This document shows, piece after piece, positions 34,476 to 44,824 of a stretch of DNA of 64,000 nucleotides (the stretch's first letter is position 1; each line of letters starts with the position of its first letter). This DNA comes from Polyangium sp. 15x6. GTDB lineage: Bacteria > Myxococcota_A > Polyangia > Polyangiales > Polyangiaceae. The notes beneath the pieces were generated by a model that worked only from the letters and a program-made list of their open reading frames with translations, was not told the DNA's origin and did no database searches. The stretch is taken from NCBI RefSeq assembly GCF_029960785.1, contig NZ_JASBQE010000012.1, forward strand, positions 124,001-188,000. The letters are read 5' to 3'. A program made the translations under genes and the position numbers.

Positions 34476-35111
34476 ATGCTTCGACCTCGATCGAATTGGG
34501 GAATCCTTCTCGTTTCGGCCTTCCTCGTGACCACGCTCCCCGCGGCCTGCGGGAGCGAGGTCGACGGCGGAAACGGCGGAAACGGCGGCAGCGGTGGCAG
34601 CGGCGGCGCGGGCGGCGCGGGCGGCGCTCCGAATTTCGGCGCCTGCAGCGGACCGGGTCAGTGTACCCTCGTCAAGAATACCTGCTGCGGCACGTGCAGC
34701 GAGCCCACGCTCGCCGACGTCGAGCCCGTGCACGTCGATCAGGTCGACGAATACAACACCTTCGTTTGTCCAGAGCCCTCGGCCTGCCCCGCCTGCGCGG
34801 GCGCGCCGAACCCCGGCCTCTTCGCGTATTGCGAGGCCGGGGGCTGCGCGGAGGCCGACGTCGCAGAGCACGCGTTCAGCGAATGCACGACCGCCGCCGA
34901 TTGCACGCTCCGGTTCGGCTCGAGCTGCTGCGAGCCTTGCGTGGGGGGCGTGCCCGACCTCGTCGCGATCGCGTCGAGCTCCCTCCAGGCGCTCTTCGAT
35001 CTCGTCTGCCCGCCCGAGTCTGCATGCCCGCCCTGCGCCCCTGTTCATCCGTCCGAATGGAAGGCCGATTGCGTGGCCGGCCATTGCGCGGTCGTCCCGG
35101 CCATGCCTTGA
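34476..35111 (+). CDS. Cysteine-rich lipoprotein
   Basis: 211 residues. ATG 34476 was chosen because it gives a canonical lipoprotein signal (LLVSAFLVTTLPAAC). After the Cys comes a GGNGGNGGSGGSGGAGG linker typical of myxobacterial surface lipoproteins. The mature part has two similar Cys-rich halves: CTLVKNTCCGTCSEP...CPEPSACPACAG and CTLRFGSSCCEPCVGG...CPPESACPPCAP. They look like an internal duplication with disulfide-rich folds. Function is unknown. It is divergent from the Ser/Thr kinase and convergent with the next lipoprotein. Confidence 0.75.
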   Translation: MLRPRSNWGILLVSAFLVTTLPAACGSEVDGGNGGNGGSGGSGGAGGAGGAPNFGACSGPGQCTLVKNTCCGTCSEPTLADVEPVHVDQVDEYNTFVCPEPSACPACAGAPNPGLFAYCEAGGCAEADVAEHAFSECTTAADCTLRFGSSCCEPCVGGVPDLVAIASSSLQALFDLVCPPESACPPCAPVHPSEWKADCVAGHCAVVPAMP

Positions 35112-36348: not shown

Positions 36349-38754
36349 ATGATGCATCGATCTCGCCTTGGTATTGTACTCGTATCGGCCCTCGGCACGG
36401 CGGTCCTCGCGGCTGCGTGCGGGGGCGGCGGCTCCACCGGGCTCCCAGGGGGCACCTCCTCGAGCGGCACCGGCGGCTCGAACAGCGGGGGAAACGGCGG
36501 CGTCGGCGGGGACGGCGGCGATATTTTCGTCGGCTCCTCGTCGGGCGTGGGCGGCACCGGCGGCAGCCAGACGCAGGGCTTCGACGTCCTGCCGAGCGCG
36601 CCGCAGGAGATCACGGTCGTTGCGGGTCAAAATACCCCGACGGTCACGTACACCTCGTACCTCGACGGAAACCCCATCAGCGCGGGCTGGAGCGTCGATC
36701 GCGGCGAGATCGGAAGCATCACGGCGGGCCAGACGAGCACGGCGACGTTCACGCCGAAGGGCACGGCCGGCGGCGTCGTCCGCGTCCGGGCCGGCCTCAA
36801 CGGCCAGGTCCTCGAGCGTAATCTTCTGGTCAAGCTCACATCGCAACAGAATGGGGCGGACACGAACAACCCCGCCCAGCAGGGCCAGATCGCCACGACG
36901 ATCCCCCAGCTCACGGAGGGCGGCGGCGTCGGCGGCGTCGGCGGCGAGGGCCTCGGCGTCGGCGTCGACAATCCCGTCGTGATCGCCGCGCTCGACGCGC
37001 CGACCAGCAATGGGCAGGCCGAGGGGCTGAAATTCCTCTATCCGTACGACCGCACGGTCTGGCCGCGCGGCATGACGGCGCCGCTGCTCCAGTGGGATTC
37101 GACGCTCGGCGGCGTCGACGCCATCAAGATCGAGCTCTCGACCACGAGCGGCTCGTTCTCGTGGAAGGGTACCTTCGCAAAACCGCAAATCCTCGCGCAG
37201 ACGGGAGGTGCCTTCATTCGCCACCCGATCCCGCAGGACGTCTGGGCCATGGCCACGAATACGGCCGGCGGAAAGACGCTCGACGGCTCGCCCGATCAGC
37301 TCGTCGTGCGGCTGACGGTGGCGAAGGGCGAGGTCGCGTACGGGCCGATCGAGGAGACGTGGACCGTCGCGCCGGGGCGGCTCTCGGGCGCCATTTATTA
37401 CATCTCGTATGGCACGAAGCTCGCGAAGAACCTGGGCGGCGCCGTGGGCGGCGACGGCATGTTCGGCGGCGCGGTGCTCTCGATCAAGGTCGGCGACACG
37501 GCGCCCAAGCTCACGGCGGGCAAGAGCGGCTCGGAGGCGGAGTGCCGCGTCTGCCATTCCGTCGCGGCGGATGGCTCGCGCCTCGTCGCGACGTCGAATG
37601 GCGGCGGCATCCCGTGGGCCTACGATATCGCGCCGGACATGGTGACCGAGAAGTCGCTCCCGAATGGCAGCTCCTTCCCGGGCATCACGCCGGACGGCGA
37701 GCTGGCGCTCACGACGGCGGGTCAGCTCGTCTCGCTCGCCAATGGCACCGTCCAGCCGATTTCGGGGCTGAACGGGGTCTCGACCAACGTCGGCACGCCC
37801 TCGTTCTCGCCGGACGGCAAGCGCGTCGTGTTCAATCCGATGGTGAGCGCGTCCATCACGAACCCGAAGCAGAAGCTCGTCTTGATGGATTTCGATGCGG
37901 CGACGAACGCCTTCGCGAACCCGCTCGTCGTCGTGGACAACACGGGACAACCGGCGGAGACGCGGCCCGGCTGGCCGGCGTTTTTCCCGGACGGCAAGAC
38001 CGTCGTGTATCATCAGCAGACCGCGGCGGGCGTCGACGGCAACAACCTCGGCGATCTACGCACGCGCAAGGGCGCCAAGGCCCACATCGCGATGGTCCGC
38101 GACGACGGCAGCGCGCCCGTCCCGCTCGACCAGCTCAATGGTAAGGACGCCGCGGGCAACGTGTACCTGCCGAAGCTCGGCCAGCCCATGGCGATGACCT
38201 GCACGGGCGACGGCGCGCAGGTCGGGGGCATGAACGCGGATCACGGCGATGACCTGAACCTGAACTACGAGCCGACGGTGAACCCGATTGGGTCGGGCGG
38301 GTATGCCTGGGTCGTCTTCACGAGCCGCCGCATGTATGGCAACGTCGCGGCGATCCCGCCGTTCTGCAGCGATCCGCGCGGCGTCAACCTCTTCACGAAC
38401 ATCACGCCGAAGAAGCTCTGGGTCGCGGCCGTGGACCTGAACTCGCCGGCGGGCGTGGACGGGAGCCACCCGGCATTTTACCTGCCCGCGCAGGAGCTGC
38501 TCGCCGGCAATGCGCGCGGCTTCTGGGTGCAGGAGCCCTGCCGCGCCGACGGCGCCGGCTGCGAGTCCGGCGATCAATGCTGCAATGGCTACTGCTCGCC
38601 CGATCCGATGGGCAGCGGCGCGCTCGTCTGCGGCGACACGCCCCCGAACGGCATGTGCTCGAACGAGGGCGACAAGTGCACGACGGCGGCCGATTGCTGC
38701 AACCCGGACAACATCTGCCTGAACGGCTTCTGCACGCTGGACGGGCCGAAGTAA
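36349..38754 (+). CDS. Large lipoprotein with one c-type haem motif and TolB-like repeats
   Basis: 801 residues from ATG 36349 (36352 is equally likely). The signal ends in VLAAAC, and a Gly/Ser linker of about 50 residues follows. An Ig-like stretch (about 85-165) precedes the core. A single CxxCH (CRVCH, near residue 398) should bind a c-type haem. It is followed by WD40/PD40-like segments (PSFSPDGKRVVFNP, PAFFPDGKTVVYHQ) like those of TolB propellers. The C terminus carries Cys-rich CCNGYC and CCNPDNIC knots similar to those in the small lipoproteins nearby. It is probably on the cell surface; the redox partner is unknown. Confidence 0.78.
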   Translation: MMHRSRLGIVLVSALGTAVLAAACGGGGSTGLPGGTSSSGTGGSNSGGNGGVGGDGGDIFVGSSSGVGGTGGSQTQGFDVLPSAPQEITVVAGQNTPTVTYTSYLDGNPISAGWSVDRGEIGSITAGQTSTATFTPKGTAGGVVRVRAGLNGQVLERNLLVKLTSQQNGADTNNPAQQGQIATTIPQLTEGGGVGGVGGEGLGVGVDNPVVIAALDAPTSNGQAEGLKFLYPYDRTVWPRGMTAPLLQWDSTLGGVDAIKIELSTTSGSFSWKGTFAKPQILAQTGGAFIRHPIPQDVWAMATNTAGGKTLDGSPDQLVVRLTVAKGEVAYGPIEETWTVAPGRLSGAIYYISYGTKLAKNLGGAVGGDGMFGGAVLSIKVGDTAPKLTAGKSGSEAECRVCHSVAADGSRLVATSNGGGIPWAYDIAPDMVTEKSLPNGSSFPGITPDGELALTTAGQLVSLANGTVQPISGLNGVSTNVGTPSFSPDGKRVVFNPMVSASITNPKQKLVLMDFDAATNAFANPLVVVDNTGQPAETRPGWPAFFPDGKTVVYHQQTAAGVDGNNLGDLRTRKGAKAHIAMVRDDGSAPVPLDQLNGKDAAGNVYLPKLGQPMAMTCTGDGAQVGGMNADHGDDLNLNYEPTVNPIGSGGYAWVVFTSRRMYGNVAAIPPFCSDPRGVNLFTNITPKKLWVAAVDLNSPAGVDGSHPAFYLPAQELLAGNARGFWVQEPCRADGAGCESGDQCCNGYCSPDPMGSGALVCGDTPPNGMCSNEGDKCTTAADCCNPDNICLNGFCTLDGPK

Positions 38755-38805: not shown

Positions 38806-39123
38806 TCACCACCGGAACGGGGGGCGATTGCAGGTGCGCTGGCAGAGGCGCATGGACTCGAAGTTGTTCATGTTCCCCTGGCAGCCGCCGTACATGAAAG
38901 GCACGCACCGACCAACGGCGCTGTTGAAGGCATACCGGCGGAAGGCCGCGCGACACGGCCCGCTCACGATCGGCTGGAGGCAGATCCGCCGCGCCGGTTG
39001 CACGACGAGATCCTGCACGTCCTCCGCGAGCTCCGCGTTCTCCGACGCATCCTCCGCCGCCGACACGGGCAGCACGAACAAGAGCGAAATCGCCGCGAAC
39101 ACACACGCGAGACCCTTCTTCAT
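38806..39123 (-). CDS. Secreted Kunitz/BPTI-type protease inhibitor
   Basis: 105 residues from ATG 39123, behind a GGGGAGG ribosome site. A signal peptide (1 to about 22, LLFVLPVSAA) precedes an acidic spacer and one Kunitz domain. Its six Cys (48, 57, 73, 81, 94, 98) have the spacing C-x8-C-x15-C-x7-C-x12-C-x3-C, identical to bovine pancreatic trypsin inhibitor. The binding loop reads GPCRAAF, so Arg58 sits at P1 as in trypsin inhibitors, and YGGC and the NNF core are conserved. It should fold with three disulfides outside the cytoplasm and block trypsin-like serine proteases. Kunitz domains are mainly animal proteins and are uncommon in bacteria. Confidence 0.92.
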   Translation of the reverse strand: MKKGLACVFAAISLLFVLPVSAAEDASENAELAEDVQDLVVQPARRICLQPIVSGPCRAAFRRYAFNSAVGRCVPFMYGGCQGNMNNFESMRLCQRTCNRPPFRW

Positions 39124-39213
39124 GGCGCACCTCCCCTTTCGAGCAGGCGCCATGCCGGCGAGCCCGCTCGCTGGAAGCATAAAGCGCACGTCCTCGACGT
39201 CCCGTGGTGCCGC

Positions 39214-39524
39214 TTCGCTGGGGCGTTGCCCCAGGCCCCACCAGGGGTTGTCCACCCCTGGACCCGGACCAGCGCAAGCGCTGGACCCAGGGTCGATGAA
39301 CTGCGCGATGCGCAGTTCATCGAACAGGCCGAGGCAAGACCAAGGGCGACCCTGCCGACCAAGACAGCCGCGCTGACCTTTCAACTGGCAACGCTATCCC
39401 GGGCCGTTGGAAGAACTGCGCATCGCGCAGTTCTTCCATCACGAGTCCAGCGCTTGCGCTGGTTCGGGTCGAGGGGCGAACAGCCCCCGCGGGGTCCGGG
39501 GCAGCGCCCCGGCGCGGCGGCCCC
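39214..39524. repeat. REPIN-like intergenic element, copy 1 (paired inverted half-elements)
   Basis: Two diverged half-elements of about 110 bp face each other around a spacer of about 80 bp (39325-39405). The left half runs from a GGGGC hairpin, through the palindrome CCAGCGCAAGCGCTGG, to a 13-bp hairpin (39294-39306 with 39310-39322). The right half mirrors it: hairpin 39409-39421 with 39425-39437, CCAGCGCTTGCGCTGG, and a terminal hairpin of the CCGGGGC type. The copy sits between the start of the Kunitz gene and the 3' end of ychF, ending 22 bases from the ychF stop. Confidence 0.85.
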
Positions 39525-39546
39525 AAGGGAGGTGGGAGCGGATCTC

Positions 39547-40644
39547 TCAGACGTTGAAGTGGAAATGCATCACGTCGCCATCCTTGACGACGTACGCCTT
39601 CCCTTCCTTGCGCATCTTCCCGGCCTGGGCCGCGCCGCTCTCGCCGCCGAATTTGACGAAATCGTCGAACGCGATGGTCTCGGCGCAGATGAAGCCCTTC
39701 TCGAAATCCGTGTGGATCTCGCCGGCGGACTGCGGCGCGGTCGCGCCGATCGGGATTGTCCAGGCGCGCGCCTCCTTCGGGCCGACCGTGAAGTACGTCT
39801 GGAGCCCGAGGAGCGCGTATGCCTCGCGGATGAGCCGGTTCAGACCGGGCTCCGCGAGCCCCAGGGTCTCCAGGAACTCCGCGCGCTCGGCGGCGCCGAG
39901 CTGGGCGATCTCCGCCTCGATCTGCGCCGAGATGACCACGGACTTCGCGCCGTCCTTCGCCGCGCGCTCGGCCACCTTCGCCGACAGGGCATTGCCCGCC
40001 CCCGCCGCGGCCTCGTCCACGTTGCACACGTAAAGCGCGGGCTTCGCGGTCAAGAGCTGCAGCATCCGCCACGCCTTCTGATCGTCGGGGTCCACCTTCG
40101 CCGTGAACGCCGGCCGGCCCGCGTTGAGCTGCTCCAGCGCGAGCTTGAGGAGGCGCAACGTATTCGCGCCCTCCTTGTCGCCGCCGCGGATCCGCTTCTC
40201 CAGGTTCGGAATGCGTTTCTCCAGGCTGTCGATGTCCGCCAGCATCAGCTCGGTCTCGATGATGTCCAGATCGGCGAGCGGGTCGACGCGCCCCTCGACG
40301 TGCGTGACGTCGTCGTTCTGGAAGCACCGGGCCACGAAAGCGACGGCGTCGCAGTCGCGGATGTTGGCCAGGAACTGGTTGCCCAGGCCCTCGCCCTTGG
40401 ACGCGCCGCGCACGAGGCCTGCCACGTCGACGAAGTTGATCCGGGCCGGGATGATCTCCTTCGAGTTCGCCAGCGACGCGAGCTTGTCGAGCCGCGGCTC
40501 GGGCACGGCCACGTCGCCGACGTTCGGCTCGATGGTGCAGAACGGGTAGTTCGCGGCCTGCGCGGCCGCCGTCTGGGTGAGGGCGTTGAACAGAGTGGAC
40601 TTGCCGACGTTCGGCAGACCGACGATCGCGACTTTCAGGGCCAT
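39547..40644 (-). CDS. ychF: Obg-family GTPase/ATPase YchF (OLA1 type)
   Basis: 365 residues, the standard length. ATG 40644 was chosen because MALKVAIVGLPNVGKST matches the family N terminus. The P-loop GLPNVGKS (9-16), NFVDVAGLVRGASKGEGLGNQFL switch region and C-terminal TGS-like domain (SAGEIHTDFEKGFICAETI, KDGDVMHFHFNV) are all present. YchF proteins often prefer ATP over GTP and associate with ribosomes and stress responses. REPIN-like copy 1 lies directly downstream, and a lone half-element lies 137 bp upstream of its start. Confidence 0.95.
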   Translation of the reverse strand: MALKVAIVGLPNVGKSTLFNALTQTAAAQAANYPFCTIEPNVGDVAVPEPRLDKLASLANSKEIIPARINFVDVAGLVRGASKGEGLGNQFLANIRDCDAVAFVARCFQNDDVTHVEGRVDPLADLDIIETELMLADIDSLEKRIPNLEKRIRGGDKEGANTLRLLKLALEQLNAGRPAFTAKVDPDDQKAWRMLQLLTAKPALYVCNVDEAAAGAGNALSAKVAERAAKDGAKSVVISAQIEAEIAQLGAAERAEFLETLGLAEPGLNRLIREAYALLGLQTYFTVGPKEARAWTIPIGATAPQSAGEIHTDFEKGFICAETIAFDDFVKFGGESGAAQAGKMRKEGKAYVVKDGDVMHFHFNV

Positions 40645-40780
40645 GGCGCAGTTCGGGGGAAAGAGGGCGGCGCGACCTAGCACGTCCGGGGCAGACGCAC
40701 CACCCCCGAGCCCTCGAGCGGACGATTCGGAGGGCCTTTCCGAGGGTGCTTCCACAGGCGTCGCCAGCGAAATCCACCTC

Positions 40781-40882
40781 TGCATCGACCGCATCGCGGT
40801 CGATGCATCAGAGGTCCAGGGCTGGCCCTGGTCCGGGTCGAGGGGCGGACAGCCCCTCGTCGGGTCCGGGGTGAAACCCCGG
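40781..40882. repeat. Lone half-element of the REPIN-like family, copy 2
   Basis: One half only: a hairpin (40781-40792 with 40796-40807), a CCAGGGCTGGCCCTGG palindrome replacing the usual CCAGCGCTTGCGCTGG, the AGGGGCGGACAGCCCCT segment, and a terminal hairpin (40866-40871 with 40877-40882). It ends 13 bases from the stop of the next leftward gene. Confidence 0.75.
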
Positions 40883-43660: not shown

Positions 43661-44517
43661 TCCGCAGGTTCGGCAAACCCGCCCTCGGGCTCGTGCTCCT
43701 GCTCGGTATCTCCGCGGCCGCATTTTTCCTCCTCCGCCGGCCCCCTACCCCCGCTCCAATCACGCCCGCCCCGGCGCCGTCGGCCGCACCGCCTGCACCG
43801 GCACCTCCGCCGATCGCATATCCCACGCCATTTTCCGTGCCAACCGCCGCACTCCCCCCGCGCGAGGCACTCCCGCCGGGCACGCTCCGCCTTCTCGTCG
43901 TCGGGGACTCGGTGGCGAGCTTCCTCGGCATGGCATTGCGGTATCGGCAGGACGAGGCCGGCGCGTTCGTCGCCGTTCGCGGGGTCGGCAGTTGCTCCAT
44001 CTTCGAGGCCAAGATCCGCATCGAGAACGGAAAACCCGTGCGGGGCACGAGCTGCTCGGAGCACTGGATCGAGGACGCCGCCGAGCTCCACCCCGACATG
44101 ACGCTCATCGTCATGGGCGGCGCCTTCTTCAATGAAAGGGCCTGCGAACCAGCCTGGCAGGACACCTACGAGAAGCGCATCTTCACGCTGGCCGACGGAA
44201 TGGGCACGAACGCGGGTCGCATCGTGCTGACGCGGGTCCCGTATCCGATCAAGGACTGGCGTTACGGAAACGTCCCGGCCCGCGTCGATTGCCTGAACGG
44301 TATGCTCGCGCGCGCCGCCCGAAAGCGTGGATGGCCCGTCCTCGATCTGATGGGCCACGTCTGCCCGACGCCCGCTTGCCGGGTCGAGAGCGAAGGCAAG
44401 CCCATCCGGCCCGATGGCCTGCATTTCGACGGCGCGGGCGCCGAGGAAACCGCGCGATGGGTCCTCGGCGAGCTGAAACGTTTTGCGCGTGAAGAGAGAG
44501 ACGCGGCGCGGCCCTGA
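43657..44517 (+). CDS. Membrane-anchored SGNH-hydrolase-like protein
   Basis: 286 residues. An N-terminal transmembrane helix (about 8-26) and a Pro/Ala linker (28-75) place the catalytic domain outside the cytoplasm. The SGNH block I nucleophile is in VVGDSVAS (Ser85) and the block V Asp/His pair in RPDGLHFDGAG (D253, H256). The fold resembles extracytoplasmic esterases/acetyltransferase partners acting on polysaccharides. It is the last gene of the coupled cluster, and REPIN-like copy 3 begins immediately after its stop. Confidence 0.75.
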   Translation: MIRRFGKPALGLVLLLGISAAAFFLLRRPPTPAPITPAPAPSAAPPAPAPPPIAYPTPFSVPTAALPPREALPPGTLRLLVVGDSVASFLGMALRYRQDEAGAFVAVRGVGSCSIFEAKIRIENGKPVRGTSCSEHWIEDAAELHPDMTLIVMGGAFFNERACEPAWQDTYEKRIFTLADGMGTNAGRIVLTRVPYPIKDWRYGNVPARVDCLNGMLARAARKRGWPVLDLMGHVCPTPACRVESEGKPIRPDGLHFDGAGAEETARWVLGELKRFAREERDAARP

Positions 44518-44518
44518 A

Positions 44519-44824
44519 GCCGCCGCGCCGGGGCGCTGCCCCGGACCCCGCGGGGGCTGTTCGCCCCTCGACCCGAACCAGCGCAAGCGCTGGACTCGGG
44601 TTGGAAGAACCGCGCGATGCGCGGTTCTTCCACAGGCCGGTGGCAAGACCAGGAACGGCGTTGCCCGTCGCGGCGGTCTTGGTTGGCAGGGTCGTAGCTG
44701 GTCTTGCCTTGGCCTGTTCGATGAACTGCGCATCGCGCAGTTCATCGACCCCGGGTCCAGCGCTTGCGCTGGTCCGGGTCCAGGGGTGGACAACCCCTGG
44801 TCGGGGTCCGGGGTGAAACCCCGG
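44519..44824. repeat. REPIN-like intergenic element, copy 3 (inverted relative to copies 1 and 4)
   Basis: This copy reads as the reverse complement of copy 1. It starts one base after the SGNH hydrolase stop with a GGGGC hairpin, then CCAGCGCAAGCGCTGG and a hairpin GGAAGAACCGCGC with its mirror (about 44603-44631). A spacer follows, then the hairpin around 44719-44747, CCAGCGCTTGCGCTGG, and a terminal CCGGGG-TGAAA-CCCCGG hairpin. It ends 27 bases before the stop of the convergent SUMF1-like gene, filling the whole space between two convergent genes. Confidence 0.85.

Follow-up and report, generated by a model that had tools for sequence, protein, structure and literature searches.

A stand-alone Kunitz/BPTI-type gene conserved in Polyangium: an apparently exported, probable trypsin-type inhibitor among mostly acidic-P1 bacterial relatives

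Kunitz domains are best known from animals. A small gene on the minus strand of the window (the whole stretch of 64,000 nucleotides of the soil bacterium Polyangium sp. 15x6 analysed here, which is part of a 190-kb contig in a 13.4-Mb genome) raised the question of whether its product is a true Kunitz protein, how the genus came by it, and what the protein may do.

The gene and its product

The open reading frame starts with an ATG at 39123 and its stop codon ends at 38806. The following features were recognized in it or next to it:

38806..39123, minus strand: stand-alone Kunitz/BPTI-type inhibitor gene, product apparently exported, 105 amino acids (open reading frame; PF00014 match; present in 6/6 Polyangium genomes)
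38830..38985, minus strand: Kunitz domain, residues 47-98 (PF00014 match; cysteine spacing as in BPTI)
38950..38952, minus strand: codon of the P1 residue Arg58 in the GPCRA loop (translation; Arg in 6/6 orthologues)
39055..39123, minus strand: apparent Sec signal peptide covering residues ~1-23, with the cut expected near VSA/A (by eye; six orthologues have a similar one)
39129..39134, minus strand: ribosome-binding site ggaggt, 5 bases 5' of the ATG (sequence; similar in 6/6 Polyangium)

Residues 47-98 matched PF00014 with 71.4 bits (curated cut-off 21; E 7.1e-20), which is far above chance. The six cysteines are spaced 8, 15, 7, 12 and 3, the canonical spacing of BPTI, with which 25 of 52 residues were identical; GPCRA, YGGC and NNF were all found. 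The sequence-only reading had proposed the family, the exact spacing and these three motifs, and it had also assigned an arginine to P1; both points were borne out, P1 being Arg58, directly after the second cysteine in GPC-Arg-Ala, and Arg in all six Polyangium orthologues. Upstream of the start codon, GGAGGTG was present in five of the orthologues and GAGAGGTG in P. fumosum, so that a ribosome-binding site accompanies the gene in 6/6 cases. The product is thus a genuine Kunitz protein, ordinary for its family, from a lineage that is an uncommon host.

Judged by eye, the N-terminus consists of an MKK start, a hydrophobic core and VSA/A, with similar N-termini in the six orthologues; the signal peptide noticed earlier is therefore an apparent one by inspection, and the protein is apparently Sec-exported. 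No lipobox was seen by inspection of the N-terminus, and a home-made lipobox pattern matched none of the six Polyangium Kunitz ORFs (0/6); because of this the protein looks soluble and not anchored. The sequence-only reading had suggested that it may guard the predator's own surface from secreted proteases, a conceivable role that the results neither favour nor oppose. The same pattern matched 33 of 68 non-Polyangium Kunitz ORFs, a figure that is no reliable statistic, the pattern missing lipoboxes such as those of L003, L011 and L042 and contig ends cutting some of the ORFs.

Structure prediction gave low confidence, with a mean pLDDT of 48.9 for the whole protein from its single sequence and of 70.5 for the domain modelled with four sequences. 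The latter model had an implausible helix at domain residues 13-22, which we take to be binding loop plus strand in BPTI. Kunitz structures were not found among the Foldseek matches of these low-confidence AlphaFold models; such poor results are uninformative and not evidence against a BPTI fold. The fold and its three disulfides are predicted here from the cysteine pattern and the family match.

Inheritance within Polyangium and relation to other Kunitz domains

PF00014 matched once in the genome of strain 15x6 and likewise once in each of the six Polyangium genomes. Among the relatives carrying the gene were Polyangium sp. y55x31, P. fumosum DSM 14668 and Polyangium sp. 6x1 (75-79% identity). 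Gene order is the same in 6/6 genomes, running from the kinase through the Cys-rich lipoprotein, the PD40 protein and the Kunitz gene to ychF, with the exception that in P. fumosum ychF lies ~6 kb further off. In the window these neighbours are:

34476..35111, plus strand: Cys-rich lipoprotein (lipobox by eye) with a domain to which we gave the working name Cys16, 3.7 kb from the Kunitz gene
36349..38754, plus strand: gene matching PD40 repeats, convergent neighbour (profile match; syntenic in 6/6 Polyangium)
39547..40794, minus strand: ychF GTPase gene, upstream and on the same strand as the Kunitz gene (profile match; synteny)

The Kunitz gene is under purifying selection in the genus: over 15 Polyangium pairs, dN/dS was 0.14-0.59 for the Kunitz domain and 0.32-0.72 for signal plus spacer. 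Its GC3 was 0.88, against 0.82-0.91 for four neighbours. Gene trees for the Kunitz and PD40 genes had a single starred pair in common (P. fumosum and genome G086) and the same longest branch (G089), the remaining branches being weak and discordant. On the basis of the presence at one locus, the synteny, dN/dS, trees and GC3, we read the gene as settled and vertically inherited within Polyangium. A mobile origin was also considered and rejected, since tblastn of the protein at E 0.001 gave no match in 72,556 plasmid and 50,697 phage records.

As a separate observation, an imperfect palindromic intergenic element of ~300 bp lies at 39230-39530 and an inverted copy 5 kb away at 44510-44810, the arms being 93% complementary. 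When 40 of 436 candidate sites in the genome were scored, 80 matches resulted, seemingly 40 places each read in the two orientations. Between the Kunitz match and that of ychF lie 427 bp here, 101-145 bp in four further Polyangium genomes and 6 kb in P. fumosum, and because of this longer gap the element looks inserted at this place.

The wider distribution was surveyed in Myxococcota and 14 control genomes. Within the family, 28 of 108 genomes had a PF00014 match; the figures were 48 of 317 for the class and 23 of 377 for an evenly drawn phylum sample (some genomes being common to the class set), and none of the 14 controls had one (0/14). The occurrence of Kunitz domains in Myxococcota is patchy. 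The Kunitz ORFs inspected were in most cases much longer than the domain, Gly/Ser-rich linkers were frequent, and some ORFs carried several Kunitz domains.

For the tree and the P1 counts given below, we took from the loci fetched those bacterial domains that reached 45 residues and 40 bits, 85 distinct ones in all; shorter or weaker domains (one copy in L006 and those in L088, L092, L110 and L111) and identical copies were left out. With 12 animal domains added, the tree was built on 51 columns and its bootstrap was not settled. The six Polyangium sequences formed one clade (99/92), with a P1-Glu domain of the family (L004, genome G071) as next neighbour (93/91, not starred); the backbone was largely without resolution, and the animal domains were scattered among the bacterial ones. 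A phylogeny of bacterial against animal domains had been proposed as the check on origin. It united the genus, and the deep placement was not resolved by 51 columns.

In BLAST comparisons with the window's domain, 12 of the 79 other bacterial domains scored above the best of the 12 animal domains and two were level with it. The best bacterial match was L004 (61% identity, 76.3 bits) and the best animal one domain 3 of SmCI (47% over 51 residues, 64.3 bits), whereas the highest animal identity, 53%, was that of bikunin domain 2 (62.4 bits). A comparison of 79 bacterial with 12 animal domains, the latter being the matches printed for two queries plus BPTI, favours bacteria; given this uneven sampling, the scores show no more than that none of the animal domains tried comes closer. 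The AU test gave p 0.020 for animals plus Polyangium as a single clade and p 0.034 for animals alone. These tests are not specific, because animals alone were also disfavoured and the two groups were chosen with the tree already in view, and they leave the direction and age of any exchange unsettled.

We consider it somewhat more likely than not that Myxococcota and animals exchanged Kunitz domains in the distant past, in either direction and long before the genus Polyangium, and this is compatible with the reading of function preferred below. The patchy presence (48/317 and 23/377, against 0/14 controls) and the interspersion of animal with bacterial domains speak for it; against it must be set that the backbone lacks resolution on 51 columns, with 12 animal domains and a survey made of Myxococcota and controls.

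P1 residues and probable function

Our preferred reading, to which we give a probability of about 0.72, is that the Polyangium protein is an exported trypsin-type inhibitor, stand-alone and soluble; the inhibition, the export and the disulfides are predicted from the sequence. After Sec export the signal peptide would be removed, and the 52-residue domain would fold with three disulfides into a small soluble canonical inhibitor. Its loop Gly-Pro-Cys-Arg58-Ala-Ala-Phe would act as a substrate mimic entering the S1 pocket of trypsin-like serine proteases, possibly those secreted by the bacterium itself or those from prey, competitors or grazers. The gene would have been passed on vertically within Polyangium as part of a phylum-wide, patchy myxobacterial repertoire.

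In that repertoire arginine is not the usual P1 residue. The 85 myxobacterial domains had Asp in 43 cases, Glu in 13, Arg in 11, Lys in 5 and others in 13, thus an acidic P1 in 56, although related species inflate these counts; four of the domains were without one or more of the six cysteines, and among the remaining 81 P1 was acidic in 54. Arg was present in 6/6 Polyangium, and Arg or Lys in 10 of the 79 others (5 each). The 12 animal domains had Lys in 5, Arg in 4 and others in 3. A three-state P1 label required at least 21 changes on the 97-domain tree, in which the P1 column was included, and this indicated that P1 changes often. Searches of the open-licence literature turned up no description of prevalent acidic P1 residues in myxobacterial Kunitz domains, nor any paper linking Kunitz proteins with Polyangium.

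According to a paper on beetle Kunitz proteins (PMC9312475), BPTI variants with Asp at P1 had the lowest association constants with four serine proteases, and in PMC3407930 acidic side chains rank among the weaker P1 residues. With acidic P1 reported as poor, the typical myxobacterial Kunitz domain would be expected to inhibit trypsin poorly, and because most relatives examined have such a residue, the bacterial family as a whole is unlikely to share trypsin inhibition as its function. The Polyangium protein is set apart from the typical myxobacterial domain by both P1 and architecture (stand-alone, without lipobox). The protein of L052 approaches it, as a 145-residue ORF with P1 Arg and seven residues past the domain, but it has a lipobox by eye.

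Other architectures were observed too. In family f48, L046 combined a Kunitz domain with six Kazal stretches by Pfam, and L048, L050, L056 and L057 encoded long proteins in which, by eye, Kunitz and Kazal-type modules occur together. The Kunitz-like domains without one or more of the six cysteines in L027 (G100) and L086 (G297) may be decaying or repurposed copies.

The same P1 counts could mean that the Kunitz domain is here a binding or structural module and not an inhibitor, since P1 is acidic in 56/85 relatives, Asp at that position is so unfavourable in BPTI, and many Kunitz domains sit in long proteins. We regard this as unlikely, as the Polyangium protein is stand-alone, has Arg at P1 in 6/6 genomes and retains the conserved reactive loop; moreover, PMC9312475 states that BPTI with an acidic P1 retains some binding to trypsin, which is strongest at low pH. 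A broader and distinctly speculative proposal is that Myxococcota hold an old, diversified repertoire in which acidic P1 is the rule, directed against Asp/Glu-specific proteases or against no protease, and that out of it a trypsin-type P1 on a freely released inhibitor became fixed independently in Polyangium and in a small number of other lineages; animal Kunitz domains may even stem from the bacterial repertoire, and not the reverse.

Returning to an exported trypsin-type inhibitor, its own genome offers candidate targets. There were 22 PF00089 matches, and a crude motif search was made in the 20 loci covering them. L114 alone joined TAAHC and GDSGGP with an Asp placed six residues N-terminal to the catalytic Ser, which we take to indicate a trypsin-type pocket. 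It has a lipobox-like start, and its PDB matches were leucine-rich-repeat proteins first, through the C-terminal part, and also tryptase, plasmin and kallikrein. L114 was present in 4/6 Polyangium genomes versus 6/6 for the inhibitor, and so the two do not form an obligate pair; a simple pairing of the inhibitor with this trypsin of its own was rejected on that count, and L114 is a candidate target, not a partner. An Asp at the same distance also occurred in four more ORFs (L165 has two of them, L168 and L170 one apiece), but with the motif GGQSG[SA]PV, presumably like that of glutamyl endopeptidases; in L169 the crude search found no motif. The proteases of L165 and L168 are of the Trypsin_2 type, with GGQSG[SA]PV at the active Ser, and also carry CarboxypepD_reg domains. 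Enzymes of this glutamyl-endopeptidase-like kind are a possible target class for the acidic-P1 Kunitz domains.

Alone, the Polyangium gene fits smoothly into a known family, and the acidic-P1 repertoire is a more interesting lead than the gene itself. Taken together, a genus-wide, vertically inherited, stand-alone bacterial Kunitz protein with trypsin-type P1 and its mostly acidic-P1 relatives make a natural series for specificity shifts and a way to test how predatory bacteria make use of protease inhibitors outside the cell.

Less favoured origins and comparison with known systems

The Cys-rich lipoprotein near the Kunitz gene suggested gene fission, in which the Kunitz gene would have split from a Kunitz-Cys16 lipoprotein of the kind found in genus g47, and the Cys16 part would have stayed as a lipoprotein 3.7 kb off. 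No match to Cys16 was obtained from Pfam or NCBIfam in the two proteins scanned. A search of the own genome gave one clear match, with seven others all below 27 bits, and a second one gave one match among the 12 of 83 candidates scored; in the class, the domain was present in at least 84 of 317 genomes, with at most 12 candidates scored per genome. An alignment of 19 sequences had 18 invariant columns. Cys16 lies near the sole Kunitz gene in 6/6 Polyangium, and in 10 further genomes, all from the window's family, 13 ORFs have it directly behind a Kunitz domain in one protein (L005, L007, L008, L009, L014, L020, L025, L027, L030, L094, L097, L101 and L102), as fission would have it. The Cys16 tree of 32 rows, for which the group of fused plus Polyangium copies was named before the tree was seen, placed Polyangium with unfused copies (98/98), and the fused plus Polyangium clade was rejected (AU p 0.012, with 13 unfused copies, from other genera only); in addition, the Kunitz domain nearest to that of Polyangium, L004, is not fused. 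Fission from such a fusion was rejected on the Cys16 tree, and we hold it to be very improbable. The linkage of the two genes in Polyangium may point to a functional connection or may be coincidental.

Least credible of all is that an animal recently passed the gene on horizontally, or that animal DNA contaminates the assembly: the renown of the domain in animals, the PDB matches shown (animal Kunitz proteins or engineered forms, going by their names) and an Arg at P1 like that of animal inhibitors are outweighed by the single locus in 6/6 genomes, the position in a 190-kb contig beside kinase and ychF, a GC3 similar to that of the neighbours, the 99/92 clade, and a best animal score exceeded by 12 bacterial domains and equalled by two, to which the AU value of 0.020 adds in its non-specific way (animals alone, 0.034; groups named post hoc). 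Instead of sporadic presence with nearest relatives in animals, we found one locus throughout the genus and top-scoring domains that are bacterial; of the animal transfer first suggested for this gene, the recent form is thus not sustained, whereas an ancient exchange may have occurred.

Among the closest known systems is BPTI itself, whose Kunitz/BPTI family PF00014 we take to be MEROPS I2. The two share the six-cysteine spacing, the GPC-[KR]-A loop, YGGC, NNF and the 25 identical residues of 52. The Polyangium protein differs in being bacterial, in its acidic spacer after the signal peptide and Arg-rich C-terminal tail, and in having Ala at P2' and Phe at P3' where BPTI has Arg and Ile. SmCI domain 3, which had the top score among the 12 animal domains, and bikunin domain 2, with the highest animal identity, belong in contrast to multidomain animal proteins, and 12 bacterial domains outscore both. 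L004, the nearest domain from outside Polyangium, comes from the window's own family, and differs by its P1 Glu, its Gly/Ser-rich linkers and a longer ORF. The pacifastin-like domains described in PMC13388995 are likewise animal-type small disulfide-rich inhibitors in large GC-rich myxobacterial genomes, but form a separate inhibitor family.

A bacterial precedent is the secreted Kunitz protein F6W77 of Acinetobacter baumannii (KABP1-5), which according to PMC11511053 (2024) has P1 Arg in KABP1, 4 and 5, the domains tested as inhibitors. Expressed P1-Arg domains of that protein inhibited coagulation proteases, and the same text calls them the first bacterial Kunitz anticoagulants, few bacterial Kunitz peptides being known. 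F6W77 is a five-domain protein of 303 amino acids from a pathogen, whereas the Polyangium protein has a single domain and is present in all six genomes of its genus.
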